Below, one piece after another: positions 39,218 through 56,667 of a stretch of DNA of 64,000 nt. Below the pieces are notes generated by a model, which searched no databases, had not been told where the DNA came from, and was given only the letters and a program-made list of their open reading frames with translations. A program made the position numbers and the translations under genes. Each line of letters opens with the position of its first letter. Positions within the stretch are counted from its first letter, which is position 1. The stretch comes from Williamsia serinedens (lineage in GTDB: Bacteria; Actinomycetota; Actinomycetes; Mycobacteriales; Mycobacteriaceae): contig NZ_JAMTCG010000007.1 in assembly GCF_024171725.1 (NCBI RefSeq), positions 186,001 to 250,000 on the forward strand, given 5' to 3'.

Positions 39218-39269
39218 GACGTCAACCTACGAGACCGGCGGCACCGGCGCCACCGTAATACGCGATCGC

Positions 39270-39301
39270 TTGCACAATGACTGCGAGTTTTGCACTATAG
39301 G
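39270..39301 (+). promoter_or_regulatory. Candidate promoter with a TTGCAC direct repeat
   Basis: TTGCAC occurs at 39270-39275 and again at 39290-39295, 20 bp apart, followed by TATAGG (39296-39301) as a -10 box for the SDR gene at 39340. The repeats (TTGCACAAT and TTGCACTAT) are candidate binding sites for the divergent TetR-like regulator. Confidence 0.45.
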
Positions 39302-39339
39302 GCGACCGACCCCGCACGACCGCCGGACAGGGAGGACCC

Positions 39340-40119: not shown

Positions 40120-40169
40120 CCCGCCGCCGTTCTCCCGTCTCTAACCACCTCTTCCCAGGAGCATCTCTC

Positions 40170-41159: not shown

Positions 41160-41308
41160 CCTCCCCGCGCATCGCCCTCGGTCCTCGTCGCGACCCCTAC
41201 TGAATCACTGTCAAATACTGCTACCCTCGCGGTGGCCCACCAGACAGCCTCTGACGGCGGGGAGCCACAGCCGGGTCAGAGGGTGATCACACCCGGAGGA
41301 GGCAGCCG

Positions 41309-42616: not shown

Positions 42617-42630
42617 GCCGACCCGACTCG

Positions 42631-42659
42631 GTTGACCGGAAGTCAACGACTGCTAAGGT
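42631..42659 (+). promoter_or_regulatory. Promoter with palindromic operator GTTGAC-N5-GTCAAC
   Basis: The perfect palindrome GTTGAC-CGGAA-GTCAAC (42631-42647) overlaps the -35 hexamer TTGACC (42632-42637); a -10 box TAAGGT (42654-42659) follows with 16-bp spacing. The core TTGA-N7-TCAA recurs at 46711 and 52578 in the same position relative to the promoter. This suggests repression by a TetR-family protein. Confidence 0.7.
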
Positions 42660-42690
42660 GATGGCCCAGGGGCGGGAGGTCGCTCCGACA

Positions 42691-43512
42691 ATGTCGTCGA
42701 TCAGTGAGGTCCCCGTGCGAACCGCAGTTGTCACCGGCGCATCGTCCGGGATCGGCAGGGCGACAGCCGCAGCGCTGACCGCCGCCGACTTCAGGGTCAT
42801 CGGGACCAGCCGCGACAGCCGTTCGGTCGCGGACCCTCTGCCCGGAGTCGAGTACCGCGACCTGGATCTCGCGTCGTCGGAATCGATCAGGTCGTTCGCG
42901 GCGGCAGTGTCCGACCTCGAGGTGGACGTCCTGGTGAACAACGCCGGCGAGAGCCAGTGTGGCCCGCTGGAGGAGCTGCCCGCCGACGCGCTCGAGCGGC
43001 TCTTCCGGCTGAACGTGCTCGGGCACATCGAGTTGACCCAACTGCTCCTCCCGTCGATGCGTGCGCGCGGGGAGGGGCGGGTGGTGTTCGTCGGCTCGAT
43101 GCTCGCCAGCTTCCCGCTAGCGTTCCGATCGTCGTACGTGGCGAGCAAGGCCGCCCTGAAGGGTTTCGCGACAGCCGCCCGACTGGAGCTGGCGCCGTTC
43201 GGGGTTCACCTCACCACCGTCGAACCCGGCTCGATCGACACGGGCCTGTCCGATCGTCGCACCAAGTACATCGCCGACGACTCGCCGTACCGGCGGGCGT
43301 TCACGACCACCGTGGCCGCCCTGGACACCAAGGAATCGCAGGGGATCTCCGCCGATCGCGTCGCGCAGACCATCCTGCGAGCCGCCACCGCACGGCGACC
43401 GGAGCCCCTCTACGCGGTCGGCAGCCGAGCGCCTCTGGTCTTCGCCGCGCGCCGCCTGCTCCCCCGCCGGGTCATCGAGTCGGTCATGGCCCGTTCCTAC
43501 GGCCTGAGCTGA
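42691..43512 (+). CDS. Short-chain dehydrogenase/reductase (classical SDR)
   Basis: 273 residues: TGASSGIGRATAAAL, LVNNAGESQCGPLEEL, Ser in VFVGSMLAS and SYVASKAALKGF with the catalytic Tyr and Lys. ATG 42691 was chosen because the promoter -10 box lies at 42654-42659, which rules out ATG 42661; GTG 42715 with GAGG upstream is an alternative. It heads a unit with the acyltransferase (21-nt gap) and an alpha/beta hydrolase, under the GTTGAC operator. Confidence 0.87.
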   Translation: MSSISEVPVRTAVVTGASSGIGRATAAALTAADFRVIGTSRDSRSVADPLPGVEYRDLDLASSESIRSFAAAVSDLEVDVLVNNAGESQCGPLEELPADALERLFRLNVLGHIELTQLLLPSMRARGEGRVVFVGSMLASFPLAFRSSYVASKAALKGFATAARLELAPFGVHLTTVEPGSIDTGLSDRRTKYIADDSPYRRAFTTTVAALDTKESQGISADRVAQTILRAATARRPEPLYAVGSRAPLVFAARRLLPRRVIESVMARSYGLS

Positions 43513-43533
43513 GCAGGAAGACGACAGCTCGCG

Positions 43534-44292
43534 ATGGACGAGGGCGCGCGGAAGGTGCTCGACGCGACGATCGCGGTCGGTCGGCTCTACCACCGGATCA
43601 CCGCCGAGCAGCGGGCGCCCATGCCCGACGGACCCGTGCTGTTCGTCGCCAACCACGGCTTCGGCGGCGTGTTCGACCTCAACGTGCTCGCCTTCGCGTC
43701 GGCCTACGACCAGCTCGACGATCCTCGCGACGTCGCGGTCCTCACCCATCAGATCGCGTGGACACTCGGCGTCGGGCCGCTCCTCGAGAGGCTCGGTTCC
43801 GTCCCCGCGAACCACGGCTCCGGACTGCGCGCCCTGCGATCGGGCAAGCACGCGCTGGTGTTCCCCGGCGGCGACATCGACGGGTTCAAATCGTGGACCG
43901 ATCGGAACAAGGTCCTCTTCGTCGGCCGGACGGGATTCGCGAGGCTCGCGATGGACGCCGACGTACCGATCGTGCCGGTCGTCACCGCCGGTGCGGGCGA
44001 GTCCCTCCTCGTGTTGGGCGCCGGCCGACGACTCGCCCGCCTCGCCCGACTCGACCGCCTTCTGCGGGTGAAGACCTTCGCCCTCACGGTGTCACTGCCG
44101 TGGGGCATCAACGCCGGCCTGGTGGGGCTGCTGCCCTACCTCCCGCTCCCGACGAAGTTGACGACGACCATCCTCCCGCCGATGCGACACGAACCCGGCG
44201 AGTCGGTCGCCGACTACGCAGAGCGTGTCCACTCTGCGATGGCAGTGGAACTCACAGCCCTCACGGCAGAACGGTTGCCGGTGATCGGATGA
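43534..44292 (+). CDS. PlsC-type lysophospholipid acyltransferase family protein
   Basis: 252 residues. The acyltransferase block I reads VANHGFGGVFDLN: His and Asp are separated by six residues instead of the usual four. Block III appears as LVFPGGDIDGFKSW (FPGG in place of FPEG) and block IV as ADVPIVPVVTAGAGES. These are variants seen in the DGAT/TMEM68-like wing of the family, which transfer acyl groups from acyl-CoA to alcohols or glycerolipids. The stop overlaps the next ATG by 4 nt. The acceptor is unknown. Confidence 0.75.
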   Translation: MDEGARKVLDATIAVGRLYHRITAEQRAPMPDGPVLFVANHGFGGVFDLNVLAFASAYDQLDDPRDVAVLTHQIAWTLGVGPLLERLGSVPANHGSGLRALRSGKHALVFPGGDIDGFKSWTDRNKVLFVGRTGFARLAMDADVPIVPVVTAGAGESLLVLGAGRRLARLARLDRLLRVKTFALTVSLPWGINAGLVGLLPYLPLPTKLTTTILPPMRHEPGESVADYAERVHSAMAVELTALTAERLPVIG

Positions 44293-45254
44293 TTCGCGGC
44301 GATGGACCCCGGGCCGGCGACGTGTGGGACGGCTATGGCGAAACCCTGACCGGGGCCGTGTCGACGGGCGACTGGATCGCGTCGGTCCGTACCGTCACGA
44401 CCAGGACGGCGCGGGTGAGGTGTGTCGACGTACCCCACGAGAACGGTCCGACGATCGTTCTCCTACATGGCATCTCGGCGAGCTGGAAATGGTTCGTCCA
44501 CCTCTTTCCGGCCCTGTCGCAGCGGTATCGGATCCTGGCGGTGGACCTCCCGGGATTCGGCGGGTCGTCGTTCTCGCGGTACCACGTCACCGTCGACCGG
44601 CTCGCAGATGCGGTCGTCGACGTGTGCGACGCGCTCGATGTCGAGGCGCCCGTCGTCCTGGGCCACTCGATGGGATCGATGGTGGCCACGCGGGTGGCGG
44701 TGCGACACCCGGACCGGTTGGGAAGCCTGATCATCACCGGCGGGCCGATCCTGTCGCTGGTGCACCTCATCCGACAGCCGGTCGAGACGTTCCGCCGCAA
44801 CCCTCGGGCCGTGGCGACACTGGTGGCCGAGTCCGCGGTGGTGGGTCTGCCACTCCCCCAGCCTGTCGCCTCCCTCATCGCCGGATCAGTGCGCCTGCGC
44901 CGAGTTGCGCTGGGCGCTTTCGTCGCTCGGCCCGACCTCCTCGACCCCGACGTCGTCCGCGCCACCATGCAGGATCTGGGTGCGCCCGCGACCTTTCCGG
45001 TCCTGGCGTCGACGGTGACCGGCGATCCCGGCCGTGAGCTGGAGAAGGTACGGTGCCCGACGCGGATCCTGCGTGGTGCGGAGGATGCTCTCTCGCCTCG
45101 AGACGACGTCGCGCTGTTCCTCTCGAGAGTCCCCACTGCCGACGAGGTCCGATTCGACCACACCGGCCACTGGCCCCACATCGAACGCCCACGCCGGTTC
45201 GTGGAGGAGGTGCACCGGTTCGTGTCCCCCGGCGTCGCCCCGATGGAGCTCTGA
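44289..45254 (+). CDS. Alpha/beta hydrolase
   Basis: 321 residues: LLHGISASWKWF (oxyanion), VDLPGFGGSS, nucleophile Ser127 in GHSMGSMVA, Asp in LRGAEDALSPRDD and His in DHTGHWPHIE. Similar folds include esterases and the C-C hydrolases that cleave ring-opened aromatics; nothing seen separates these. The ATG overlaps the acyltransferase stop (ATGA), so the two are coupled. An N-terminal extension of about 45 residues precedes the fold. Confidence 0.85.
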   Translation: MIRGDGPRAGDVWDGYGETLTGAVSTGDWIASVRTVTTRTARVRCVDVPHENGPTIVLLHGISASWKWFVHLFPALSQRYRILAVDLPGFGGSSFSRYHVTVDRLADAVVDVCDALDVEAPVVLGHSMGSMVATRVAVRHPDRLGSLIITGGPILSLVHLIRQPVETFRRNPRAVATLVAESAVVGLPLPQPVASLIAGSVRLRRVALGAFVARPDLLDPDVVRATMQDLGAPATFPVLASTVTGDPGRELEKVRCPTRILRGAEDALSPRDDVALFLSRVPTADEVRFDHTGHWPHIERPRRFVEEVHRFVSPGVAPMEL

Positions 45255-45323
45255 CGTGGCCGGTGGTCCCGGACGGACGCGGCGATAGGATCGCACCGAT
45301 CAGTCATCAGTGAGGAGCGCGCC

Positions 45324-45971
45324 GTGCCGAGCCCTTCGCGCAAACCCACGAAGCGGGCAGCGCAGGCGGCCGAGACCAGGGCCCGCCTGATCGACGTCGC
45401 CATCGAGGTCTTCTCCGACACCGACTACGAGCAGGTCGCGGTGGCGGAGATCGCGGCCCGCGCGAAAGTCGCGCACGGCCTTCTCTTCCACTACTTCGGC
45501 AACAAGCGCGGCATCTACCTCGCCGCGGTCCGAGCCACCGCCGAACAGCTCAACGCCGCGTTCACCTTCGAGCCCGGGGCGACCCCACGGGAGATGATCC
45601 GTGGTGCGCTCGGACAACACCTGGCCTATCTTCACCAACATCGCGGCCTCGCATTGCGACTCGTGCTCGGTGGCCGCGGTGTGGACGCCGAGGCCTGGGA
45701 GATCTACGAGGCGGGCAGATGGCAGGCCCTCGAGGCGTTCGCCGGGCTCCTCGGGCTGGAGACCACCAACCCGGCGCTGCGCGTCGTGGGTCGTGCGGCC
45801 GTCGGCGCCATCGACGAGGCCGTGGTGCAGTGGCTCGACGACACCGACACGGTCGACGCGAACCGGCTCCTGGCGTGGATGGAGGCCCTGATCGTCGCGT
45901 GTCTGGGCACCGCGTCGGTCCTCGACGAGACGTTCGACCTCGACGGTGCGCTCCGCACGCTCGACGGCTGA
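45324..45971 (+). CDS. TetR-family transcriptional regulator
   Basis: 215 residues. HTH: TRARLIDVAIEVF...VAEIAARAKVAHGLLFHYFGNKRGIYLAAV. It is a close paralogue of the convergent regulator at 46000-46656; both contain AHGLLFH-FG-K in the recognition helix, so they may read similar sites. A TAGGAT box near 45284 suggests its own promoter, though it could also be read from the upstream unit (69-nt gap). GAGGAG lies 7 nt before GTG 45324. Confidence 0.9.
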   Translation: MPSPSRKPTKRAAQAAETRARLIDVAIEVFSDTDYEQVAVAEIAARAKVAHGLLFHYFGNKRGIYLAAVRATAEQLNAAFTFEPGATPREMIRGALGQHLAYLHQHRGLALRLVLGGRGVDAEAWEIYEAGRWQALEAFAGLLGLETTNPALRVVGRAAVGAIDEAVVQWLDDTDTVDANRLLAWMEALIVACLGTASVLDETFDLDGALRTLDG

Positions 45972-45999
45972 TCCGGGTCACGCACGTCCGACACGGGTC

Positions 46000-46656
46000 T
46001 CAGGGTCGTGGGCGGAGCACCGCGAGGACCCCATCGACGTCGAGCTTCGGATCCAGCAGGCGCGCTGCGCGCATGGCGGCTGCCGCGGACTCGATCAGCC
46101 ACTCGACGAGGGTGTCGAGGGGAAGCGACTGTTCACCGAGCACCCACTGCACCGACGCCTCGTCGACGGCGGCGAACGTGCGCGCGACCAGCACGACGGT
46201 CGGGTTGTCGACCTCCACGCCGAGGCGTGAGGACAGGACACCGACGACGCGGTCACGACCGGCCTGCGACGACTCGCGGACGTCGGTGTCCGCTGATCTG
46301 CTGCCGGCGACCAGCTGCAGCGCGAGCGTGGGGTTCTCGGCCCCGTAGCGGAGGTGCCCGCGCAGTCCACCGCGGATGACGTCCTCCGGTGCAGCGCCCG
46401 CCCCTGCGAGGAACGCGGCATCCATCTCCGCGACGACCTCGTCGAGCACCGCCCGGTACAGACCGTGCTTGGAGCCGAAGTGGTGGAACAGCAGTCCATG
46501 CGCCGTCCCCGCCCGCCGCGCGATGGCGGCGACCGTCGTGTCGTCGAAGCCGTTCTCCGCGAACAGTTCTCTGGCCGCCCAGAGGAGTCGCCCGCGCGTC
46601 GCCGTCCTCCGACGGGCGCGTGGGGTCGTATCGCAGCCGTGCTCCGCGGCCGACAT
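46000..46656 (-). CDS. TetR-family transcriptional regulator
   Basis: 218 residues, HTH: TRGRLLWAARELFAENGF...VAAIARRAGTAHGLLFHHFGSKHGLYRAV. ATG 46656 is preferred to the adjacent GTG 46659 because GGAGG sits 7 nt upstream. It diverges from the ring-cleavage operon across a 116-bp gap holding the GTTGAC-N5-GTCAAC palindrome, so it is the best candidate for the regulon repressor. Its stop is 28 nt from that of its paralogue. Confidence 0.9.
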   Translation of the reverse strand: MSAAEHGCDTTPRARRRTATRGRLLWAARELFAENGFDDTTVAAIARRAGTAHGLLFHHFGSKHGLYRAVLDEVVAEMDAAFLAGAGAAPEDVIRGGLRGHLRYGAENPTLALQLVAGSRSADTDVRESSQAGRDRVVGVLSSRLGVEVDNPTVVLVARTFAAVDEASVQWVLGEQSLPLDTLVEWLIESAAAAMRAARLLDPKLDVDGVLAVLRPRP

Positions 46657-46709
46657 CACAGCACCTCCGCCATCCGACGCACTCTACGTCCAGTGATTGA
46701 CCGCAATTC

Positions 46710-46739
46710 GTTGACTTGCAGTCAACGTGTCCGTAGCGT
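46710..46739 (+). promoter_or_regulatory. Promoter and operator of the ring-cleavage operon
   Basis: GTTGAC-TTGCA-GTCAAC (46710-46726) overlaps the -35 TTGACT (46711-46716); -10 is TAGCGT (46734-46739), 17-bp spacing. A degenerate second copy, TTGACCGCAATTCG, starts at 46697, exactly 14 bp upstream, so two dimers may bind side by side. TAGAGT on the minus strand at 46681-46686 could be the -10 of the divergent regulator. Confidence 0.72.
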
Positions 46740-46772
46740 CGACGTCGACAGGCATCCGATCGAGGAGGACGC

Positions 46773-47750
46773 ATGGCGATTCGGGTCATCCGGTACACCG
46801 ACGACGGGGCGACGCACTGGGGGGTCGTGAACGGCCCGGACGTCACGGCACTCTCCGACGACTACCCGACCACCGGAGCGCTGCTCGAGAGCGGGCGAGC
46901 CGACATCGACGACGCCCGTCGCCGCGCCCCGAGCCATTCGCTGCCCGAGGTCGACGTGCAGTCGCCGATCACCGTCCCGTGCCGCGTGATGTGTCAGGGC
47001 GCGAACTACCGGCAGCACGCCATCGAGTCCGGGATGGACCCCGACAATCGCGCCTTCAACCTGTTCTTCGACAAGACCGATGCATCGGTCACGGGTCCCT
47101 ACGACCCCGTCGAGCGACCTCGCCACGTGCGCCTGCTCGACCACGAGATCGAACTCGCATTGGTGATCGGCGCCCCGATCGACCGGCCCGTGACCATCAC
47201 CGACGCCGATCTGCCCAGGTACGTCGCCGCGGTCACGATCGGCAACGACCTGTCGGCGCGCGATGTGCAGCTGCCCCAGGGGCAGTACCTGAAAGGCAAG
47301 AGCTACCGCGGTTTCTGCCCACTGGGACCGGAGCTCGTCCTGTTGGAAGAGGACGACTACCCGCTGCTGGACGACCTCGACCTCGAGTTGCGCGTCAACG
47401 GCGAGCTGCGCCAGACCGACAACACCTCGAACGTCGTCTACCGACCCGCCGAGTCGTTGACCGAACTCAGCACGTTCTCCAACCTGTCGCCCGGGGACGT
47501 CGTCCTCACGGGGACCCCGCACGGCACCGCCGCGAAATCACCGCCGGCGCTGGTGCGCCGCCTCGCCACGGCGCTCCTCCCTGAGCACGTGATGTGGAAG
47601 GCGTTCATCCGCCGCAACGTGTCCGGACCGTTCCTGCGGCCCGGTGACACCGTGACCGCCTCGATCCGAACACCCGACGGGGCTCTCGACCTGGGAACCC
47701 AGAGGACACCCATCGTCGCCGCGACCGCACCGGAAGGCGTTCCCGCATGA
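46773..47750 (+). CDS. Fumarylacetoacetate hydrolase (FAH) family protein
   Basis: 325 residues. The FAH catalytic domain spans about residues 75-315: CQGANYRQHAIE, the metal-binding acidic pair in LLDHEIELALVIG, NDLSARDVQ and VLTGTPHG. Members cleave C-C bonds in acylpyruvates or decarboxylate and hydrate ring-opened aromatics (HpcE type). GAGGAGG precedes ATG 46773. First gene of a four-gene operon in which every junction overlaps; followed by a ring-cleaving dioxygenase, so it most likely handles the ring-opened product. Confidence 0.9.
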   Translation: MAIRVIRYTDDGATHWGVVNGPDVTALSDDYPTTGALLESGRADIDDARRRAPSHSLPEVDVQSPITVPCRVMCQGANYRQHAIESGMDPDNRAFNLFFDKTDASVTGPYDPVERPRHVRLLDHEIELALVIGAPIDRPVTITDADLPRYVAAVTIGNDLSARDVQLPQGQYLKGKSYRGFCPLGPELVLLEEDDYPLLDDLDLELRVNGELRQTDNTSNVVYRPAESLTELSTFSNLSPGDVVLTGTPHGTAAKSPPALVRRLATALLPEHVMWKAFIRRNVSGPFLRPGDTVTASIRTPDGALDLGTQRTPIVAATAPEGVPA

Positions 47751-48373
47751 CCACACCGGCTCCCAGCACCACCGCACTCGCGCCCGAGATCCTCGCGCAC
47801 TACGTCATCAAGACCCCGCGTGCCGCGGAGATGATCGACTGGTACGGAAAGGTCCTCGGCGCTCGTGTCGTCCACGAGGACTCGCAGATCGCCTTTCTGA
47901 CCTGGGACGAGGAGAGTCACCGTCTCGCCCTGGTGAAGATCCCCGGGCTCGTCCGACGGCTCTTCCCCCTCGCGCGGTTCCGACGCAAGGTGGTGGGCGT
48001 CGACCACCTCGCGTTCACCTACAGCTCCCTCGAGCGGTTGCTGCTCAACCACGAGCGTCTGACCGCGCTCGGGATCGACCCGGTGTGGTCGATCAACCAC
48101 GGCCCCACCACCTCCCTGTACTACGAGGACCCCGACGGCACACGTCTGGAGTTCCAGGTGGAGAACTTCGCGACCCCGGAGGAGACCGCCGCGTTCTTCG
48201 ACAGCGAGGAGTTCGCCGAGAACCCCATCGGCGTGACGATCGACCCCGCCTACCTCCTCGAACGTCTGCGCGCGGGCGAACCGCCGCACGCGCTGACCGG
48301 CCGCTACGCCGGAGTCCGGCCCGGAACACGGCCGCGTGTCAACAAGCGCGCCATCACCTTCCGCACGCTGTGA
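47747..48373 (+). CDS. VOC-family protein, probable one-domain type I extradiol dioxygenase
   Basis: 208 residues. The vicinal-oxygen-chelate fold shows the 2-His-1-carboxylate iron site: His18 (ILAHYVIKT), His87 (VGVDHLAFTY) and Glu135 (RLEFQVENF), with SLYYEDPDGTRLEF matching the extradiol signature. One-domain enzymes of this kind open catechols next to the hydroxyls. A glyoxalase or other VOC activity cannot be excluded. The ATG overlaps the FAH stop by 4 nt; the last 60 residues are a family-atypical tail. Confidence 0.82.
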   Translation: MTTPAPSTTALAPEILAHYVIKTPRAAEMIDWYGKVLGARVVHEDSQIAFLTWDEESHRLALVKIPGLVRRLFPLARFRRKVVGVDHLAFTYSSLERLLLNHERLTALGIDPVWSINHGPTTSLYYEDPDGTRLEFQVENFATPEETAAFFDSEEFAENPIGVTIDPAYLLERLRAGEPPHALTGRYAGVRPGTRPRVNKRAITFRTL

Positions 48374-50205
48374 TGATCACGCCACCGCACACCCCGGTGG
48401 TGATCTGCGGAGCGGGTGCCGCCGGGTCGACCCTGGCCCTTCTGCTCGCATCCCGCGGGATCCCGTCGACCGTCCTGGATCGGCGGCGTGACCCACTGGG
48501 ACATCCTGCAGCGCACGTGATCAACGCGCGGTCGTTGGAGATCTGGCGTGAGGTCGACCCCGACCTCGCGGCGCAGATCGCCGCGCTGTCCCCGCCCATC
48601 TCCGAGATCAACCTCATCCGGTGGTGTTCGACGATCGGCGCGACCCCGCTCGGCGAGATCGACCTCCTCTCCGAACCCGAGCAACTCGCGAGGGTGCGGT
48701 CACACAGCGACTTCCTCATCTCCCACGTGGGTCAGCACCTGCTGATGCCACTGCTGTGGCAGCACCTCGACGACGAGCCGCTGGTCTCGTTCCACCGCGG
48801 CGTCGCCGTCACCGATCTCGTGACCGACCGGTCAGGTGCGACCCTCCGCACCGGATCAGGCTCGGACACCGCACCGTTCGTCATCGCAGCCGACGGTGCG
48901 AACAGCGTCGTCCGGGACCTGCTCGGCATCACCATGCAGGGACCGGTGCTGGCACGGATGGCGAGTGCGTTCTTCCGCTCCCCCGACCTGCACCCTCACG
49001 AACGCCCGCTGCTGACGTGGATCTACCAACCCGGTTTCGCCGGGGTCCTGATCGCCCACGCCGACGACCACTACATCCTGATGGGCACGTATGTCCATCC
49101 AGGCCAACCGATCGCGTCTGACCCCGATCGGTACTGGCGCGACGCCCTGCCTCGGGTCCTGGGCGCCGACAACACCTACGACATCCGGTCGACCGGTACG
49201 TGGACGATGACGTCGCAGACCGCGTCGTCGTTCCGAAGCGGTCCCGTCCTGCTCGTCGGTGACGCCGCCCATCGCTTCCCGCACACCGGCGGGTACGGGC
49301 TCAACAGTGGTGTCCAGGACGCCCACAACCTGGCGTGGAAGCTCGACGCGGTGCTCAACCACCGCGCCGACGACGCCCTGCTCGACACCTACGAGATCGA
49401 ACGCCGGCCGGTGGTGGAACTCTTCGCCGACCACAGCGTGCGCAACCACTTCACCCTCGACGCGGTGACGAAGCACTTCGGCGCGACCAACCGGGCGCTG
49501 CAGACCGTCACGTCCCTGATGGGACGGGCACCGCTGACCTGGGTACCCGACGCCCTCGCGGCGCGGGCCTCGGATCACCTCATCCGTGCCGGCCTGGCCC
49601 GCACGGCCATCCTGGGCCGAGACACGGCTCGCGCCCGACGGATCCGCGACCGTGCCGCCCTCGCGATCCCCGACCAGGCGCCCCATTTCGTGTCCACGGG
49701 GCTGGAGTTCGGCTATCGCTACTGTGGTCCGCTCATCGCCGACGACGGCACGCCGCCGGGATCGACGGATCCGGAAGAGGTGATCGAGTACTTCCCGTCC
49801 GTCGTCGCCGGGGGCCGGTTGCCGCACGTCCCCGTCGACGTCGGCGACGACCGTCGATCGATCCTCGAACTGGTCGACCGATCACCGGTCGTGCTGACCG
49901 TCGTGACCACCGACCCCGTGGCCTGGCTCGAGCGCCTCGACGCCGATCTGATCAGTCCACTCGAGGTCACGACGGTGGACGTCGGAGCGGTCTGCGTGGC
50001 GCCCGAGTCGGCCGCCGAGCTGTACCGCCTGACCCGCGGCGGCGCCGTGATCGTCCGCTGCGACGGCCACATCGTCTGGCACGACGACCGTCCCGCCGAC
50101 CAGTCCGCCGACGCGCTGCACGCCTTCCTCGCTCAGGGGTGGGCGCAGCTCGTCCCAGCCCGTGCCGCGACCGCCGACGCCCGCACCTCCAGGAGCACCG
50201 AATGA
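48373..50205 (+). CDS. FAD-dependent aromatic monooxygenase (PHBH/MhpA type)
   Basis: 610 residues. Dinucleotide fold VVICGAGAAGSTLALLLA (8-25), the DG motif IAADGANSVVRDLLG (about 174-188) and the GD motif LLVGDAAHRFPHTGGYGLNSG (about 292-312) define class A flavoprotein hydroxylases. The C-terminal 150 residues resemble the thioredoxin-like extension of phenol hydroxylase and MhpA. It should hydroxylate a phenolic ring with NAD(P)H and O2, making the diol for the dioxygenase. Its ATG overlaps the previous stop by one base; its stop overlaps the next start. Confidence 0.9.
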   Translation: MITPPHTPVVICGAGAAGSTLALLLASRGIPSTVLDRRRDPLGHPAAHVINARSLEIWREVDPDLAAQIAALSPPISEINLIRWCSTIGATPLGEIDLLSEPEQLARVRSHSDFLISHVGQHLLMPLLWQHLDDEPLVSFHRGVAVTDLVTDRSGATLRTGSGSDTAPFVIAADGANSVVRDLLGITMQGPVLARMASAFFRSPDLHPHERPLLTWIYQPGFAGVLIAHADDHYILMGTYVHPGQPIASDPDRYWRDALPRVLGADNTYDIRSTGTWTMTSQTASSFRSGPVLLVGDAAHRFPHTGGYGLNSGVQDAHNLAWKLDAVLNHRADDALLDTYEIERRPVVELFADHSVRNHFTLDAVTKHFGATNRALQTVTSLMGRAPLTWVPDALAARASDHLIRAGLARTAILGRDTARARRIRDRAALAIPDQAPHFVSTGLEFGYRYCGPLIADDGTPPGSTDPEEVIEYFPSVVAGGRLPHVPVDVGDDRRSILELVDRSPVVLTVVTTDPVAWLERLDADLISPLEVTTVDVGAVCVAPESAAELYRLTRGGAVIVRCDGHIVWHDDRPADQSADALHAFLAQGWAQLVPARAATADARTSRSTE

Positions 50206-52529
50206 GCATCGACGTCCCCGAGATCGCTCCGGCCTCACCGGACATCCGCACGCTCGACACGATCGCCCGCCGTGTCCTGTGGACCTCGACGGCGATCATC
50301 CACCATGCCAACCGGGTTCGCCCCAACCCGAGCGGGCTGAAGGTCGGTGGCCATCAGGCCTCGAGTGCGTCGATGGTCCACATCATGACGTCGCTGTGGT
50401 TCGGTCAGCTGGGTGCCGGTGACCGGGTCTCGGTCAAACCCCATGCCTCACCGGTCCTGCACGCCATCAACCACCTTCTGGGAGAACTCGACGAGCGGTG
50501 GCTCACGACGCTGCGGGAGTACGGCGGCCTCCAGTCGTATCCGAGCCGGTCGAAGGACCCCGACCCCGTCGACTACTCCACGGGATCGGTCGGCATCGGC
50601 GCGACCGCACCGATCTGGGGGGCGATCGCGCGCCGCTACGTCGACACGACGTTCGGCAGCACGGGGACGGGTCGGCAGTACTCGCTCGTCGGTGACGCGG
50701 AACTCGACGAGGGCGCGATCTGGGAGGCCGTGCTCGACCCCAGCGTCGCCGACCTCGGGGAGATCGTCTGGATCGTCGACCTGAACCGCCAGTCGCTTGA
50801 CCGGGTGGTCCCGAACATCGCCGCCCGCCGGCTCGAGCAGATGTTCACCGCCGCCGGCTGGCAGGTCATCACCGTCTCGTTCGGACGCATCCTGGAGAGC
50901 CTGTTCGCCCGTCCCGGAGGCGACGCACTGCGTCGTCGCATCGTCGAGATGCCCAACCCCGAATACCAACGACTCCTGCGGTGCTCGGCCGAGGAGGTGC
51001 GTACCCGTCTGCCCGGAGTCGGACCCGACGCCGACGCCATCACCGGTGTCATCGGCGATCTCGACGACTCGACGCTGCTGGCGGCCGTGGCGAACCTCGG
51101 CGGGCACGACATCGGGGCGTTGCAGGCCGCCTACGCCCAGATCGACGACACACGGCCGACGGTCGTCATCGCCTACACCGTGAAGGGGTTCGGCCTTCCG
51201 ATCCAGGGCCACCCGCAGAACCACTCGTCGCTGCTCAGCGTGGAGCAGTTCGACGACCTCGCCGTCACGCTCGGCGAGGACGCCCGGAACCCCTGGCGAC
51301 GGTTCCCGTCGGAGTCCCCGGAGGGACAGCTCTGCGAACAGGTCTCGGCGCGACTCCGACGCGACCCGGTCCCACCGCTGCCCCGACTCTCGGTGCCGCG
51401 CGACGTCGACCGCACTCCCTCCGCGACGTCCACCACCCAGGCCGCACTCGGTCGGGTCCTGTTGGACCTCTCCCGTGAGGCGCCGGAGATCGCCGACCGG
51501 GTGGTGACCGTCAGCCCCGACGTCAGCTCGACGACGAATCTCGCCGGGTGGTTGAACAAGGTCGGCGTGTGGTCCCCGGCCGAACGACACAACTGGTTCG
51601 CCGACGACGCCGAGACGATCATGCACTGGCGTGAGCGACCCACCGGCCAGCACATGGAACTCGGCATCGCCGAGACGAACCTCGTCGGCCTCCTCGGTGA
51701 ACTGGGCGCGACGTGGAGCCGGTGGGGTCAGCCGTTGCTGCCGATCGGTGTCCTCTACGACCCGTTCGTCGAACGCGCACTGGAGCCGTGGTCGTTCGGC
51801 GTCTACGCCGGCGGCCAGTCGATCCTCGTGGGTACACCGTCGGGTGTCACGCTGGCCTCCGAAGGCGGTGCGCACCAGTCGATCACGACGCCCTCGGTCG
51901 GTCTGGAGCAGCCCGGCTGCGTCACCTATGAGCCCGCGTTCGCCATCGAGGTTCAGTGGGTCCTGCTCGACTCCCTGGCCCACCTCGGCCGACCCGACGG
52001 CCGCTCCGCCTACCTGCGACTGTCCACCCGTCCCGTCGAGCAGGGCCTGGCCGAGGTCCCGTCCGACCCCGCTGCGCGGGAGCGGCGGAGACGCCAGGTG
52101 GTGGCCGGCGCGTATCCCCTGCGTACCGCGGAGATCACGCCGGCCGCGACCATCGTCACGATGGGCGCGATGGCGACCGAGGCGATCCGCGCCGCGGAAC
52201 GCCTACGGGACATGGACATCGACGCCGACGTCGTCTGCGTCACCAGTCCGGGACTGCTCTTCGATGCGACCCAGGCCCGCGCCGGCAGACAGGACGCGCC
52301 GACCTGGATCCTCGACAGCGTGTTCCCGGCGGACCGCGCCGCGCCGATGGTGACCATCCTCGACGGCCACCCACACACGCTGGCGTTCCTCGCGACCATC
52401 AACTCGGTGCCGCTGCGGGCGCTCGGCGTCACCTCGTTCGGCCAGGCCGGATCTCTCGACGACACGTACCGGCACCACGAGATCGACGCCGACAGCATCG
52501 TCCGCGCGACGCTCGACGTCCTCGGGTGA
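50202..52529 (+). CDS. AceE-like thiamine-diphosphate enzyme (transketolase superfamily)
   Basis: 775 residues, shorter than AceE (about 890-930). N-terminal half: GLKVGGHQASSASMVHIMT, YSTGSVGIGATAPIWGAI, ThDP/Mg motif GDAELDEG (from about 163) ending in Asn of VDLNRQ about 28 residues later, and YTVKGFGLPIQGHPQNHSS. C-terminal half: HMELGIAETN with the likely activating Glu491, and LPIGVLYDPFVERALEPW. This matches homodimeric pyruvate dehydrogenase E1. No E2 or E3 gene accompanies it, so it may decarboxylate a 2-oxo acid or transfer a ketol unit on its own, or borrow the SucB-type E2. It is translationally coupled to the monooxygenase. Confidence 0.85.
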   Translation: MSIDVPEIAPASPDIRTLDTIARRVLWTSTAIIHHANRVRPNPSGLKVGGHQASSASMVHIMTSLWFGQLGAGDRVSVKPHASPVLHAINHLLGELDERWLTTLREYGGLQSYPSRSKDPDPVDYSTGSVGIGATAPIWGAIARRYVDTTFGSTGTGRQYSLVGDAELDEGAIWEAVLDPSVADLGEIVWIVDLNRQSLDRVVPNIAARRLEQMFTAAGWQVITVSFGRILESLFARPGGDALRRRIVEMPNPEYQRLLRCSAEEVRTRLPGVGPDADAITGVIGDLDDSTLLAAVANLGGHDIGALQAAYAQIDDTRPTVVIAYTVKGFGLPIQGHPQNHSSLLSVEQFDDLAVTLGEDARNPWRRFPSESPEGQLCEQVSARLRRDPVPPLPRLSVPRDVDRTPSATSTTQAALGRVLLDLSREAPEIADRVVTVSPDVSSTTNLAGWLNKVGVWSPAERHNWFADDAETIMHWRERPTGQHMELGIAETNLVGLLGELGATWSRWGQPLLPIGVLYDPFVERALEPWSFGVYAGGQSILVGTPSGVTLASEGGAHQSITTPSVGLEQPGCVTYEPAFAIEVQWVLLDSLAHLGRPDGRSAYLRLSTRPVEQGLAEVPSDPAARERRRRQVVAGAYPLRTAEITPAATIVTMGAMATEAIRAAERLRDMDIDADVVCVTSPGLLFDATQARAGRQDAPTWILDSVFPADRAAPMVTILDGHPHTLAFLATINSVPLRALGVTSFGQAGSLDDTYRHHEIDADSIVRATLDVLG

Positions 52530-52574
52530 CCGACCGGATGAGGCTGACCGCGCACCGACAGGGCTCGACACCGT

Positions 52575-52605
52575 TCTTGATTGCCCCTCAAGACGCTGCT
52601 AGCGT
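52575..52605 (+). promoter_or_regulatory. Promoter with TCTTGA-N7-TCAAGA operator
   Basis: TCTTGA (52575-52580) and TCAAGA (52588-52593) form a palindrome that contains the TTGA-N7-TCAA core seen at 42632 and 46711. TTGATT at 52578 serves as -35 and TAGCGT (52600-52605) as -10, 16-bp spacing. The SDR gene starts at 52647. Confidence 0.65.
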
Positions 52606-52646
52606 GGCGTGGTCCGCAGTGCAGTCCGTAGAGGGAGAACACAGTC

Positions 52647-53450
52647 ATGTCTGTTCCGACCACGTCGCGGACCGCGCTGGTCACGGGTGCCTCGGCCGGG
52701 ATCGGCGCCGCGTTCGCGCGGCACCTGGCTGCTCAGGGCAACAACGTCGTCCTGGTGGCCCGTCGCGAGGACCGGTTGGTCGCCCTCGCCGAAGAGCTCC
52801 GCCGCGGGTACGGCGTCACCGCGACGGTGATCGCCGCAGATCTGAACGACAATGCGGGGCCGCGAAGCATCGTCGATCAGTGCACGTCGCAGGGCATCGA
52901 CATCGACATCCTGATCAACAACGCCGGCTTCTCCGGCAACGGCGCTTTCGCGGACACCCCGTTCGAGGACCTGGCCCGCGAGATCCAGGTGATGGTCACC
53001 GCGGTGACGGAACTGGCCCACCTCGTGATCCCGGGGATGAAGGAGCGCCGGTACGGCCGGATCGTCAACCTCTCGTCGCTGGCCGCACTCCTGCCCCCGG
53101 CGGCCAGCCTGCTGTACACCCCGATCAAGTCCTACGTGCTCAATCTCTCGCAGGCCCTGGACATGGAGCTCAAGCCACATGGAGTGAACGTCACCGCGCT
53201 GTGCCCGGGGTTCACCCACAGCGAGTTCCACGACGTCATGGGCACCCGTGACGCCGCGTCGACGAAGCTGCCCGGGATCCTCTGGCAGTCGGCCGAGGAC
53301 GTGGTCCGCGAGGGATGGGACGCCGTCGAGGCCGGGAAAGCGGTGTGCGTCCCCGGGACCGTCAACAAGCTCACGGCCGCGGGAGCGAAGCCGATCCCCA
53401 CGCGGCTCGGCTACGTGCTGGGCAGGACGTTCAACCCCTTCAAGAACTGA
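52647..53450 (+). CDS. Short-chain dehydrogenase/reductase (classical SDR)
   Basis: 267 residues: TGASAGIGAAFARHLAAQG, ARREDRL (NADP preference), LINNAGFSGNG, Ser pair in VNLSSLAALLPPAAS and YTPIKSYV with catalytic Tyr and Lys. It closely parallels the SDR at 39340 (same ARREDRL and tail with basic residues), so the two are probably paralogues. It has its own operator-bearing promoter and is convergent with the desaturase-like gene, 26 nt away. Confidence 0.88.
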   Translation: MSVPTTSRTALVTGASAGIGAAFARHLAAQGNNVVLVARREDRLVALAEELRRGYGVTATVIAADLNDNAGPRSIVDQCTSQGIDIDILINNAGFSGNGAFADTPFEDLAREIQVMVTAVTELAHLVIPGMKERRYGRIVNLSSLAALLPPAASLLYTPIKSYVLNLSQALDMELKPHGVNVTALCPGFTHSEFHDVMGTRDAASTKLPGILWQSAEDVVREGWDAVEAGKAVCVPGTVNKLTAAGAKPIPTRLGYVLGRTFNPFKN

Positions 53451-53476
53451 CGGTCGCCGACAGAGCCGACTTGTGG

Positions 53477-54889
53477 TCATCTCGCCACGTGCCGAAGCGC
53501 GCTGAGCGCCGCGTTGTGACCGTTCATCCCGTGCACTCCCCCTCCGGGAGGCGTTGCGGCCGAACAGATGTAGACCCCGTCGATGCCGGTGGCGTACGGG
53601 TCGAACGCCACGCGCGGTCGCATGAGGACCTGGCGGGGCGAGTTGAGGCCGGTGATGATGTCACCGCCGACGTAGTTCGGGTTGTACGAGGGCATCTCGC
53701 GCGGGCTGCGGGAGTGGATCGCGGCGATTCGCTCCCGGAAGCCGGGGGCGAAGCGTTCGATCTGGTCGAGGATGAGCCCGGTCGCGTCCCCGGTGTAGCC
53801 GTGAGGCGTGTGGGCGTACGCCCAGATCGGGTGGATCGATCCCGCCGACCGTGACGGATCCGCCAGATACTGCTGCGCGAGCAGCACATACGGACGCTGC
53901 GGCATGACGCCCCGGTGGACGTCGCGTTCCGCGGCGACGATCTCCTCGAACGACCCACAGACATGCACGGTCCCGGCGTACCGCGCCGCCTCGTTGGTCC
54001 ACGGGATGTGATCGTCGACGGCGATGTCGAGTTTGAACGCGGCAGGGCCGTATCGGTATCTGCGATAGGCCTTGGCAACGCGCGCGGGCAGCCGGTGGCC
54101 GGCGAGGTCGACGACGGCGGTCGGTGAGAGGTCCATCATGACGATGTCCGACGTCACCTCGTCGAGATGGGTGACCTCGACGCCCGTGTGCACGGTGCCA
54201 CCGAGCTCGGCCAACAGCTTCGCCATCGCGGTGGTGATCGCCTCGGAGCCACCTTCGGCGACCGGCCACCCGTGGTTGTGACCCGCCGCGATCATCATCG
54301 CGCCGATCGCCGACGTCGTCGGTCGGCTCAGTGGGTAGACCGCATGCGCGGCAACACCCCCGAAGAGGGCTCTGGCCTCGGGGGTCTGCAACCGCGACGC
54401 GGTCAGCGTCGCCGGCGACAGCGCCGTCGGCCCGAATCTCGCCATCGGCACCAGATGTCGCGGTATGTGCGTGATCGGCTGGAAGAACTCGTCGGCGAGG
54501 TCCTCGAACGTCCGCACCAACGGCCCGAACACGCGCCGCCACCGGGCGCCGTCCGCACCGAGACCCTCGACGGTGTCGGACAGCGAGGTCTGCAGGACCC
54601 CGGCCCGGCCCCCGTCGAGCGGATGGACGACGTCGATGGGCGCCCTGAGCCATCGCAACCCGTACCGATCCAGGCCCGCCGAACGGAAGAACGCCGATGC
54701 CACGCCCATCGGGTGTACCGCCGAGCAGTCGTCGTGCAGCACGCCGGGGACCGTGAGTTCCGATGTACGGGTACCGCCCCCGATCCGGTCGGCCATCTCG
54801 AGGACGGTGACCGACACGCCTGCTCGGGCCAGGGTGACCGCGGCGGCGAGCCCGTTGGGCCCGGAGCCGACGACCGTCGCGGTGGTCAC
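53477..54889 (-). CDS. FAD-dependent oxidoreductase, phytoene desaturase/RetSat-like
   Basis: 470 residues. VVGSGPNGLAAAVTLARAG and the following GGGTRTSEL are the FAD-binding start of phytoene desaturase-like enzymes; AVHPMGVASAFFRSAGL, GGSEAITTAMAKLLAELGG and the C-terminal GVYICSAATPPGGGVHGMNGHNAA complete the pattern. Relatives desaturate, saturate or isomerise polyenes and hydrophobic lipids. GTG 54889 overlaps the stop of the DUF3556 gene. Last gene of the three-gene minus-strand operon. Substrate unknown. Confidence 0.88.
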   Translation of the reverse strand: MTTATVVGSGPNGLAAAVTLARAGVSVTVLEMADRIGGGTRTSELTVPGVLHDDCSAVHPMGVASAFFRSAGLDRYGLRWLRAPIDVVHPLDGGRAGVLQTSLSDTVEGLGADGARWRRVFGPLVRTFEDLADEFFQPITHIPRHLVPMARFGPTALSPATLTASRLQTPEARALFGGVAAHAVYPLSRPTTSAIGAMMIAAGHNHGWPVAEGGSEAITTAMAKLLAELGGTVHTGVEVTHLDEVTSDIVMMDLSPTAVVDLAGHRLPARVAKAYRRYRYGPAAFKLDIAVDDHIPWTNEAARYAGTVHVCGSFEEIVAAERDVHRGVMPQRPYVLLAQQYLADPSRSAGSIHPIWAYAHTPHGYTGDATGLILDQIERFAPGFRERIAAIHSRSPREMPSYNPNYVGGDIITGLNSPRQVLMRPRVAFDPYATGIDGVYICSAATPPGGGVHGMNGHNAALSALRHVAR

Positions 54890-56667
54890 CGGTTGCCGAC
54901 CGTGCCGGGATCCGAGCGACGGGTACCGTTCGCGCTCACGGACGTCGCCCGACGCGTCACCGTGACGGGGATGTCCCCGCTCTCGTCGAGCCACGGCTGT
55001 CGGGCGATGGTGTCCGACACGGACACGGTGCCCTCCTCGATGAGACCCGCTGCGGCGTCGACGATGCGGTAGCTCTGTGTTCCGCGGTGGAACGGCTGCC
55101 CCTCGATCATCACGGCCATCAGATCGCCCGGGGCCAGGTGGAGCCGATTGTGCACAGCCGCGAGGAGCTGCTCGTTGTGCAGATGTCCCTCACCGAAGTT
55201 CCACCCCAGGAGGCCACCGGCCATGAACTCGCCCTCGCGGATGACGTGGTCCTCACGGTTCGCGACGGCACGGGAGATGAGGCCCATGTGCGCGCGTCCA
55301 TGACTGTGCATCGCCCGCCACGCCGAGAACTTCTGCATCATGAACTCGCTGGTGTCCTCGTCGTACAGCTTCAGCAGCTGCATCTTGGTCATCGGCGCAG
55401 ACGTGATGATCTCCTCGTTCATCCGCTCCTCAAGGCCGGGCCTGAGGATCCAGGTGTCGGTGGCCCAGTTGCCCGCGTAGTACCGCATGCCGACGAGGAA
55501 CGACACCCACTGCGGTCGGAAGCCCCCGACCACGATGCCGGCGACGAGGAGGGCCGCGACGACGAACGGCCAGGCGGTCGTCGCATCCCACACGGCGTAG
55601 TCCGCATTCGTGTAGTGCCCGAACAGGAACCACGAGCCGAGGATCACGAAGACGTTCCACTCGAGCGGGACACCGGCGGGGAACGTCGAGATGATGAACA
55701 GGTGGAAGATCGTGAACCCGATCAGCACCACGGTCGTCAGAACGGTGTTCGTCGAGAACAACAGGATCGCAGGCAACACGAACTCGACGACGGTCCCCTG
55801 GTGCGCGGTGAACTTCGCGAAGGTGGAGGGCCGCATGTCCTCGGGGAAATCTCGGTAGAGCGTGCGCTTGAGGCGCGTGCTGCGGATGAGCGGGCTGTTG
55901 GAGATCATCACCGCGACCACGAACGGGAAGTGGTGGTTGATCTTCGACGTCGCAGCACCCCACCAGACGGCGACCATGATCAGCTTCAGCGCGATGATCA
56001 TGTCGACGAACGGGAACAGGAACGCGACGGCCATCAGGAAGTACTGATCGGAGCGCGCCGCGAGGAAGATCGCCTTGTCCCGCAGACCCACGACGGCGAG
56101 CAGGACGACCGTGGCGAGCGGGAACGCCCAGTTCATGATCCCGGCACCCCCCGGCCCCCCGCTGACGCCGTCGGACGCCAGCGACCAGCCCAGGGTCACC
56201 AGCAGACCGGCGTAGAGAGCCACGTCGACGACCGTTCGGGTGTCACCCCCGGTGAAGGGCACCTTGGTCGGCCAGGGTGCGAGCCGGATCGTCCCGGGCC
56301 GCAACCAGTAGGTGAACCCACCCACCGGCGGGAAGAACCGCATCGTCAACGGGCCGGAGCCACAGCCGAACCCGAGCACCTCGAACAACACGGTGAACAT
56401 GACGAACTTCTGGTAGACGATCGGCTCGGTCCACCACTCCCCGATCTGTCCCCACCCTCCGATGCCGGGGGTGGTCGCGATGATGATGGCCAGCGGGATC
56501 ACCAGGTAGGCAACCATCTTCACGACGTAGAACAGGTAGGCACCGGCGGGTGTGCCGAAACCCTGTTCTCCCCAGTGCTGTACCTGCAGCTTGATGCGGT
56601 CGAGATGGGGACGACGACGCCACTCGGCGAGGTCGACGTCGGGAAGGGTGGGTGAGAGCAGGCCCAT
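54886..56667 (-). CDS. DUF3556 polytopic membrane protein
   Basis: 593 residues. The start GLLSPTLPDVDLAEW, VVKMVAYLVIPLAIIIATTPG, FEVLGFGCGSGPLTMRFFPP, YWLRPGTIRLAPWPTKVPFT and HYTNADYAVWDAT match the actinobacterial DUF3556 family. About nine to ten membrane helices occupy residues 45-410; the last 180 residues are soluble (EGEFMAGGLLGWNFGEGHLHNEQLLAAVHNRLHL). Function unknown; the position between a CoA ligase and a polyene-type oxidoreductase suggests lipid or hydrophobic-substrate handling. GAGAAAG precedes ATG 56667. Confidence 0.88.
   Translation of the reverse strand: MGLLSPTLPDVDLAEWRRRPHLDRIKLQVQHWGEQGFGTPAGAYLFYVVKMVAYLVIPLAIIIATTPGIGGWGQIGEWWTEPIVYQKFVMFTVLFEVLGFGCGSGPLTMRFFPPVGGFTYWLRPGTIRLAPWPTKVPFTGGDTRTVVDVALYAGLLVTLGWSLASDGVSGGPGGAGIMNWAFPLATVVLLAVVGLRDKAIFLAARSDQYFLMAVAFLFPFVDMIIALKLIMVAVWWGAATSKINHHFPFVVAVMISNSPLIRSTRLKRTLYRDFPEDMRPSTFAKFTAHQGTVVEFVLPAILLFSTNTVLTTVVLIGFTIFHLFIISTFPAGVPLEWNVFVILGSWFLFGHYTNADYAVWDATTAWPFVVAALLVAGIVVGGFRPQWVSFLVGMRYYAGNWATDTWILRPGLEERMNEEIITSAPMTKMQLLKLYDEDTSEFMMQKFSAWRAMHSHGRAHMGLISRAVANREDHVIREGEFMAGGLLGWNFGEGHLHNEQLLAAVHNRLHLAPGDLMAVMIEGQPFHRGTQSYRIVDAAAGLIEEGTVSVSDTIARQPWLDESGDIPVTVTRRATSVSANGTRRSDPGTVGNR

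Follow-up and report, generated by a model that had tools for sequence, protein, structure and literature searches.

What does a relative of the pyruvate dehydrogenase subunit AceE do in an operon for the opening of aromatic rings? The question is raised by four consecutive genes in a 64,000-nucleotide stretch of contig NZ_JAMTCG010000007.1 from the soil actinobacterium Williamsia serinedens (the window; coordinates are positions within it). The last of them encodes an enzyme of the thiamine diphosphate (ThDP)-dependent E1 type:

46773 to 47750, + strand: FAH-family hydrolase, 325 amino acids (Pfam FAA_hydrolase, 165 bits)
47747 to 48373, + strand: one-domain type I extradiol dioxygenase (VOC), 208 amino acids (Pfam Glyoxalase/dioxygenase, 46 bits)
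48373 to 50205, + strand: class A flavin adenine dinucleotide (FAD) ring hydroxylase (FMO), 610 amino acids (Pfam FAD_binding_3, 213 bits, and Rng_hyd_C, 33 bits)
50202 to 52529, + strand: homodimeric-type E1 (ThDP) of a non-AceE clade, 775 amino acids (Pfam Transketolase_N, PDH_E1_M and the transketolase C-terminal domain)

We consider it rather probable that the operon is a ring-opening module with an E1 of its own, yielding 2-oxobutyrate and then propionyl-coenzyme A (propionyl-CoA); the ring, the FAH reaction and the E1 substrate are the parts that we infer. The FAD hydroxylase would add an ortho hydroxyl to an alkyl- or methylphenol, hydroquinone or resorcinol, and the dioxygenase would open the ring beside the diol to give a 3-methyl-2,4-dioxo (2,4,6-trioxo) acid. 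The FAH enzyme would hydrolyse this cleavage product to 2-oxobutyrate and a carboxylic (3-oxo) acid, and the E1, together with E2 and E3 from elsewhere in the cell, would oxidatively decarboxylate 2-oxobutyrate to propionyl-CoA. The ring would be thymol- or carvacrol-like or that of another C-methylated phenol.

The four genes were confirmed on the + strand by reading the sequence, and all three junctions overlap. The start of the dioxygenase gene overlaps the stop of the FAH gene by 4 bases (ATGA), the hydroxylase gene starts with the ATG at 48373 and shares one base with the preceding gene (TGATG), and the E1 gene starts with the ATG at 50202, again with a 4-base overlap (ATGA). The original prediction that the genes are made together as one transcription unit is thus borne out by gene overlap, Pfam agrees with the four families that it had named, and its description of a ring-hydroxylating and ring-opening set is supported. 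It had also pointed to the absence of the enzymes that usually follow meta-cleavage, and no hydratase, 4-hydroxy-2-oxovalerate aldolase or acylating aldehyde dehydrogenase was found among the proteins scanned at 39-55 kb.

The residues of the first two proteins agree with their proposed roles. The dioxygenase has the 2-His-1-Glu metal site (H18, H87, E135) and the signature of a type I extradiol dioxygenase: His18, His87, Glu135, His118 and Tyr125 are identical in 55/55 sequences (in which five genes were entered twice with different starts), and the pattern that we take to be the extradiol signature is matched in 52 of the 55, the window's included. Its structure model, with a predicted local distance difference test score (pLDDT) of 82.6, was closest in the PDB to a Mn-bound glyoxalase and then to the extradiol dioxygenases LapB, HPCD, BphC and AphC (template modelling score about 0.5 on the query); the ring-cleaving activity is predicted from this similarity of fold. 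The FAH protein has an FAA_hydrolase domain with His82/Glu85, Glu125/Glu127 and Asp159, identical in 4/4 sequences aligned, which we take, by analogy with FAHD1, to be the acid/base dyad and the metal ligands. Its best named model was 2,4-didehydro-3-deoxy-L-rhamnonate hydrolase (123 bits, below the cut-off of 500), and no equivalog model reached its cut-off in the NCBIfam scan. Some of its PDB relatives are acylpyruvases (FAHD1 entries), and we propose that it carries out an acylpyruvase-like hydrolysis of the ring-cleavage product. The PDB relatives of the FAD hydroxylase include 2,4-dichlorophenol 6-monooxygenase and 2-hydroxybiphenyl 3-monooxygenase.

The fourth protein had been called AceE-like, which is right as a description of resemblance, although its clade, as judged by sequence, is itself not AceE. 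The window E1 scored 232.0 bits against the aceE model TIGR00759, far under the curated cut-off of 859.9, whereas the AceE of the same genome (most of the protein) scored 1372.3 bits. The nine residues H106, H142, Y177, D230, N260, K392, E571, Y599 and H640 (E. coli numbering), which we take to bind ThDP/Mg or to act in catalysis, are all kept in the window E1 and are identical across 61 aligned clade members, save one gap at H106. Identity to the window E1 is 40-100% among these members, which cover different gene contexts, including those linked to 1-aminocyclopropane-1-carboxylate (ACC) deaminase and methionine gamma-lyase. Positions 140, 179, 194, 258, 261, 522, 526 and 600 are K, S, V, D, R, V, T and D in 61/61 members, invariant across these contexts, and Q, H, M, N, L, E, F and S in both E. 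coli AceE and the AceE of this genome. Five of the replaced AceE residues (Q140, M194, N258, E522 and S600, exchanged for K, V, D, V and D in all 61) presumably lie near the substrate. The window E1 has 50 residues ahead of the His106 equivalent against 106 in E. coli E1, i.e. about 55 N-terminal residues fewer, and in the comparison, made with E. coli AceE only, the AceE-type N-terminal segment, which we take to be E2-binding, was not found. The first eight PDB matches of the E1 structure model were E. coli E1 chains (five entries), followed by transketolases. The model is weak (mean pLDDT 69.5, long active-site stretches below 50) and no pocket geometry was therefore taken from it. Family members are now annotated as 'pyruvate dehydrogenase', 'transketolase' or 'DXP synthase N-terminal domain'.

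This genome has a second E1 copy (L021, G000:C1:670463-672754), 86% identical and standing alone. The whole four-gene operon occupies the equivalent site in Williamsia deligens, so the lone copy may be an operon remnant. It adjoins genes for a phenolic acid decarboxylase, a DUF3237 protein, a MarR regulator and a carboxylesterase, with related loci L023 and L024. A link to 4-vinylphenol, suggested by the phenolic acid decarboxylase gene that adjoins the second copy in L021 and L023 and the operon in L024, was dropped, as this arrangement was seen only in three Williamsia genomes and at a single syntenic site.

Does the E1 work in a lipoyl complex? Searches with the window's family and gene order, together with annotated plasmids, gave 108 distinct E1 loci once stretches under 9 kb had been excluded and identical genes, recognised by a 300-base tag, had been merged. 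The surrounding 9 kb were searched for neighbours with tblastn, where contig ends hide some of them, and open reading frame calls in loci other than the window are rough. An E2 gene was found near the E1 gene at 28/108 loci, in 27 cases directly downstream at 23 to 640 bp and in the remaining one (L162) 8.6 kb upstream. A divergent Lrp-type regulator gene lies within 600 bp upstream of E1 in 36/108 loci. Zero E2 matches and one Lrp match were obtained in 25 control loci of at least 13 kb, a small set that, as we read it, consists entirely of dioxygenase loci without E1 on the stretch and not of random stretches. The four actinobacterial cluster E2s tested (4/4) consist of a lipoyl and a catalytic domain with no E3-binding domain; an E3-binding domain is present in the E2 beside the clade E1 of Sphingobium (L248). 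Two E2 genes that adjoin E1 (L108:13871-14656 and L111:13065-13616, two genomes of one genus) seem, in these rough calls, to be without most of the lipoyl domain, which may reflect decay or an assembly effect.

The original prediction offered two roles for the E1. Action on a 2-oxo acid is supported by the lipoyl E2 genes that adjoin its relatives, whereas transfer of a two-carbon unit found no backing, as the gene contexts carried no sign of a carboligase. The protein might still be a transketolase-like carboligase or a non-oxidative decarboxylase needing no E2. Such an enzyme could dispense with the missing N-terminal residues and with a dedicated E2, which this genome lacks; the apparently reduced E2 genes of L108 and L111 and the annotation of some family members as transketolase would also fit. 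The E2 genes near E1 at 28 of the 108 loci and the structural match to E. coli E1 chains before any transketolase, though at a pLDDT of 69.5, nevertheless make an enzyme of this kind quite improbable.

The next question is which 2-oxo acid is used, and here the gene neighbours are informative. ACC deaminase and methionine gamma-lyase both release 2-oxobutyrate. In 3/108 loci, of which two are independent, E1-E2 is preceded by genes for ACC deaminase, lipoyl synthase and RidA; this arrangement was seen in Rhodococcus pseudokoreensis and another genome. The ACC deaminase of L135 scored 543 bits against a cut-off of 392. The E1 of L135 is 96.1% identical over 773 amino acids to that of L119, which lies near genes for VOC, FAH, FMO and acetoacetate:CoA ligase, so that practically one enzyme serves in the ACC deaminase and the ring-cleavage setting; the E2s of the two loci are 87% identical. 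No aromatic genes were recognised on the 18-kb stretch of L135. Among proteobacteria, 8 of the 18 E1 regions listed, from 123 plasmid records under 60% identity, were opened. In 3/8 of these alphaproteobacterial plasmid regions (Leisingera, Sulfitobacter and Ruegeria, all Roseobacteraceae) an Lrp gene and a methionine gamma-lyase gene precede E1, and the lyase checked in one of them scored 747 against the curated cut-off of 666. The other five regions have the Lrp gene and no lyase. From gene neighbours, then, we infer that the E1 substrate is 2-oxobutyrate. Acetolactate synthase, which also uses 2-oxobutyrate, was matched near E1 in 11/108 loci and 0/25 controls. Genes for a DUF3263 protein and the large subunit of acetolactate synthase follow E1-E2 in several Rhodococcus-type loci (L132 15522-17650, L134, L039).

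These neighbours bear on two further explanations. If the FAH enzyme released plain pyruvate, the E1 would be an extra, pathway-induced pyruvate dehydrogenase E1 forming acetyl-CoA, as might be expected from an E1 whose fold and sequence are nearest to the E. coli pyruvate dehydrogenase E1 and from the acylpyruvases among the PDB relatives of the FAH protein. We regard this as unlikely, since the genome already has an AceE of its own (1372 bits), the E1 clade replaces eight residues kept by AceE, and its relatives adjoin makers of 2-oxobutyrate. Alternatively, the E1 might act on the unhydrolysed meta-cleavage product and give an acyl-CoA for beta-oxidation, with the FAH protein as an isomerase or hydratase. 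There is a precedent in EdcC of estrogen breakdown (PMC7793797), and by eye acyl-CoA dehydrogenase and enoyl-CoA hydratase genes follow E1 in L025 and L086. However, an E1 of 96% identity stands beside ACC deaminase on 18 kb in which aromatic genes were not recognised, which favours a small shared substrate, and the residue set of the E1 does not vary with context; direct action on the ring-cleavage product therefore appears improbable to us.

The linkage of E1 to ring cleavage is seen in gene order and across genomes. The original prediction proposed a search for a conserved order of the four genes, and the same-strand order FAH-VOC-FMO-E1 was indeed found in 6/108 distinct E1 loci: the window, L022 and L024 (both Williamsia), L025 (from the genus of a Dietzia contig, L086/L212) and L095 and L096 (one genus). 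It also occurs in Mycolicibacterium sediminis (L219), and the Dietzia contig begins inside the VOC gene and continues with FMO-E1. The arrangement is thus shared by Williamsia, Dietzia and Mycobacterium-type genomes. In 19/108 loci, E1 has members of all three partner families as neighbours at up to 9 kb, in varied orders. Among 301 genomes of the family, 55 have the dioxygenase and 86 the E1 clade; E1 occurs in 48 of the 55 genomes with the dioxygenase against 38 of the 246 without it (Fisher p 1.7e-24, with genomes that are not independent and kinship ignored). E1 lies within 20 kb at 28 of 59 dioxygenase places and not within that distance at the other 31. Of the dioxygenases with at least 54% identity, 32/34 lie in genomes having E1. 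Both the co-occurrence and the linkage of dioxygenase and E1 exceed chance. On an E1 tree of 114 sequences, two of them AceE and 22 from loci with a nearby dioxygenase, made after removal of sequences that had internal stops or fewer than 690 aligned residues, the ring linkage needs at least 16 changes, a count that cannot separate gains from losses, and 500 label shuffles needed 21 on average and 16 at least. The dioxygenase link therefore follows kinship weakly and has been gained or lost many times. In L087, L089, L090, L093, L095 and L097, a second ring-breakdown cluster, recognised partly by eye (P450, FAD hydroxylase, FAH and a larger dioxygenase-like gene), lies beside FAH-VOC-FMO.

A second E1 lineage occurs in the same setting. 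When named genomes were scanned with the dioxygenase alignment, 63 loci were obtained, and in 24 of these the stretch also carries an E1-type gene. Members of the dioxygenase family with 40-58% identity stand beside an E1 of another lineage in Aquabacterium (2 loci), Pseudomonas cyclaminis, Alloalcanivorax and a Paraburkholderia from a lichen. The three such E1s compared, from the first three of these genera, are 25-26% identical to the window E1 and 52-53% identical to E. coli AceE. This lineage passes TIGR03186 in 3/3 tested (L243, L246, L235), whereas the window E1 fails this model (206.2 against a cut-off of 1408.3 bits). The E1s of Aquabacterium, P. cyclaminis and Alloalcanivorax keep the E. 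coli residues at no fewer than seven of the eight positions listed above. An E2 with an E3-binding domain follows E1 in Aquabacterium and P. cyclaminis; no E2 was found on the Alloalcanivorax stretch, which ends inside the gene after the dioxygenase. The row in the lichen isolate Paraburkholderia sp. D15 consists of genes for an acyl-CoA-dehydrogenase family protein, a flavin reductase, mdeB (named so in the annotation), E2, VOC, FAH, an NTF2 family protein and an FAD monooxygenase. Sphingobium and Sphingopyxis have an E1 of the window clade (39-40% identity) and an E2 near the dioxygenase. Inoue in 1997 reportedly tied mdeB to methionine gamma-lyase in Pseudomonas putida. Like the window clade, mdeB is a homodimeric AceE-like E1 with 2-oxobutyrate as presumed substrate, and window-clade members also adjoin Lrp and methionine gamma-lyase genes, although the two lineages are different. 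Two E1 lineages that are both tied elsewhere to 2-oxobutyrate have therefore come to the same ring-opening set. We see about an even chance that this is an unnamed, widespread lower pathway for C-methylated phenols, made up of extradiol dioxygenase, FAH enzyme and lipoyl-dependent 2-oxobutyrate dehydrogenase, that arose several times over and drew on no fewer than two homodimeric E1 lineages, the window lineage in Actinobacteria and sphingomonads and the mdeB lineage in other Proteobacteria.

A further group of loci, here called Acidimicrobiia-type (L265 10775-12304 and 14353-15345; similar in L262-L264, L266, L268 and L269), has a related dioxygenase gene followed by a by-eye acyl-CoA dehydrogenase gene and by an E2 gene on the other strand. 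The E3-binding domain and the E1_dh gene were confirmed in L265 only; a third E1 type in the same setting is possible.

Several observations weigh against a 2-oxobutyrate dehydrogenase dedicated to ring cleavage. The window's operon contains no acid:CoA ligase gene. No close relative of the cluster-type E2 was found in this genome, where the best match is the general E2 at 15154-17034 (50% identity), and the short N-terminus of the window E1 bears on the choice of E2 partner. The ACC deaminase and methionine gamma-lyase neighbours are few: the lyase-like gene of L165 (318 against the cut-off of 666) was not counted as a methionine gamma-lyase, and one lyase-like match occurred among the 25 controls. 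Acyl-CoA carboxylase and methylmalonyl-CoA mutase neighbours were dropped as a sign of propionyl-CoA, since carboxylase homologues, in 4/108 E1 loci against 3/25 controls, are not enriched. An E1 of this clade is missing from seven of the 55 genomes with the dioxygenase and is present in 38 dioxygenase-free genomes; E1 is unlinked at 83/108 loci, which have no such dioxygenase within 9 kb; the E1 clade must therefore have other jobs. The unlinked loci could even suggest that the E1-like gene is a chance neighbour with no role in the ring pathway, but the overlapping frames, the genome-wide co-occurrence, the repeated linkage and the second E1 lineage in the same setting make this very improbable.

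A related set is found in L115, L117 and L119, where genes for an HsaA-like protein, VOC, FAH, FMO, acetoacetate:CoA ligase, Lrp, E1 and E2 stand together. The HsaA-like protein of L119 scored 269 bits against a cut-off of 450 and the acetoacetate:CoA ligase of L052 scored 820 against 521; the annotation of L132 additionally names a flavin reductase. A 2-alkyl-5-methylphenol could here receive a para and then an ortho hydroxyl; ring opening next to the diol and hydrolysis by the FAH enzyme would leave 2-oxobutyrate and a 3-oxo acid, and in the ligase-bearing loci E1-E2 and the ligase would activate one half-product each. Chamberlain and Dagley are said to have obtained 2-oxobutyrate, isobutyrate and acetate from thymol in Pseudomonas in 1968. 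The scheme would agree with these products and, in our own reading, with the ipp cluster considered below.

Known systems share parts of this set, and the comparisons that follow hold for the portions of the cited papers that were available. The hcdABC operon of Pseudomonas mandelii 7HK4, for the breakdown of 3-(2,4-dihydroxyphenyl)propionate, likewise combines an FAD hydroxylase, a type I extradiol dioxygenase and an FAH-family hydrolase (PMC6222606). Its cleavage product, 2,4-dihydroxy-6-oxo dienedioic acid, is held by the authors to be hydrolysed by the FAH enzyme, with hydrolysis products that they did not identify; it differs in substrate and bacteria, and no E1, E2 or Lrp gene is mentioned (PMC6222606). 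The ipp cluster of Rhodococcus sp. D-6 degrades 2-isopropylphenol, a ring without a methyl group (PMC12442392). It resembles L115, L117 and L119 in its one-domain IppB (BphC2-like), FAH-family gene, acetoacetyl-CoA synthetase gene and HsaA/HsaB-like monooxygenase, but no E1 and no class A FAD hydroxylase are named among its eight listed genes, two of which are hypothetical without a clear match, and its authors propose a different lower pathway to 2,3-dimethylbutanoic and malonic acid (PMC12442392). EdcC, like the proposed E1, is a 2-oxo acid oxidoreductase whose action on a ring-cleavage product is taken to give a CoA ester; unlike the E1 it belongs to the indolepyruvate ferredoxin oxidoreductase family, is not lipoyl-dependent and acts in the breakdown of a steroid ring, with no FAH step mentioned (PMC7793797). 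The flavonoid clusters fde and ifc also use an FAD hydroxylase and a glyoxalase-family dioxygenase on a phenolic A ring, but their substrates are flavonoids and no E1 is reported (PMC11069340, PMC11303751). LumK/LumL is a ThDP enzyme in an aerobic ring-breakdown set ending in pyruvate and acetoacetate, but it is built of two small subunits of 20 and 23 kDa and differs in both reaction and substrate (PMC12746152). Riboflavin/lumichrome catabolism, which also involves a P450, was rejected as the identity of the operon because of this different two-subunit protein and because no counterparts of its Rieske and xanthine oxidase genes were found among those scanned; the fde/ifc and ipp clusters were rejected as well, as the overlap is only partial.

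Each single step has a precedent. FAH enzyme, dioxygenase and FAD hydroxylase are combined in hcdABC, and a 2-oxo acid oxidoreductase follows ring cleavage in the case of EdcC. The earlier statement that hydratase, aldolase and acylating aldehyde dehydrogenase form the end of the known meta-cleavage routes was too strong: in hcdABC the product is held to be hydrolysed by an FAH-family enzyme (PMC6222606), and EdcC, a ThDP-type oxidoreductase, already takes an estrogen meta-cleavage product (PMC7793797). No pathway with all four families was found in the open-licence papers searched, although subscription papers could contain one; nor was the proposed ending in a 2-oxo acid dehydrogenase found there as a described gene set.

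Further genes of the window may belong to the same system, with assignments that are tentative from the P450 gene onwards:

46000 to 46659, - strand: TetR regulator, divergent and adjoining the operon (TetR_N, 64 bits), with a homologue divergent at the equivalent place in L024 and L025
45324 to 45971, + strand: second TetR regulator (TetR_N, 51 bits), with 62-91% homologues in L022, L085 and L099
41309 to 42616, + strand: cytochrome P450, candidate upstream hydroxylase (Pfam p450, 95 bits), with 59-91% homologues in the related dioxygenase loci L022, L085, L096, L099, L100 and L105
42745 to 43512, + strand: short-chain dehydrogenase/reductase (SDR), accessory (adh_short), with 60-92% homologues in L022, L085, L099, L100, L102 and L105
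43534 to 44292, + strand: PlsC-like acyltransferase, accessory (Acyltransferase, 42 bits), with 58-93% homologues in L022, L085, L099, L100, L102, L105, L107, L110 and L111
44289 to 45254, + strand: alpha/beta hydrolase, accessory (Abhydrolase_1, 106 bits), with 46-85% homologues in L022, L085, L088, L091, L094, L110 and L111
39340 to 41159, + strand: SDR (39340-40119) and NmrA-like reductase (about 40215-41159), accessory, both with homologues in L088, L091, L094 and L109
15154 to 17034, + strand: general E2, possible partner of the E1 (Pfam: two lipoyl domains, E3-binding domain and catalytic domain)

The task of the upstream P450, SDRs, NmrA-like protein, acyltransferase and alpha/beta hydrolase may be to make the substrate ready or to process the second half of the cleavage product. 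Just past the operon, on the - strand, a gene for a CrtO-like FAD oxidoreductase (53477-54994) overlaps that of a large membrane protein (54886-56667). An Rfam scan of 39000-56000 gave no match, and no tRNA genes were found in the 64-kb window.

A relative of AceE in a ring-cleavage operon is unexpected to a specialist, and the prediction of 2-oxobutyrate as its substrate is checkable with purified protein. An actinobacterial E1 without the AceE-type N-terminal segment, taken together with four E2s without an E3-binding domain, raises the question of how such a complex is assembled. If the proposed pathway is true, bacterial aromatic catabolism would gain an exit through propionyl-CoA, an E1 family that now stands under mixed annotations would have a function open to testing, and the old biochemical report that thymol yields 2-oxobutyrate would be matched with genes. 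The E1 would then be a marker gene for the breakdown of methyl-substituted phenols such as the plant phenols thymol and carvacrol, lichen phenols and xylenols, and its presence in a genome would tell where the ring had carried a methyl group.

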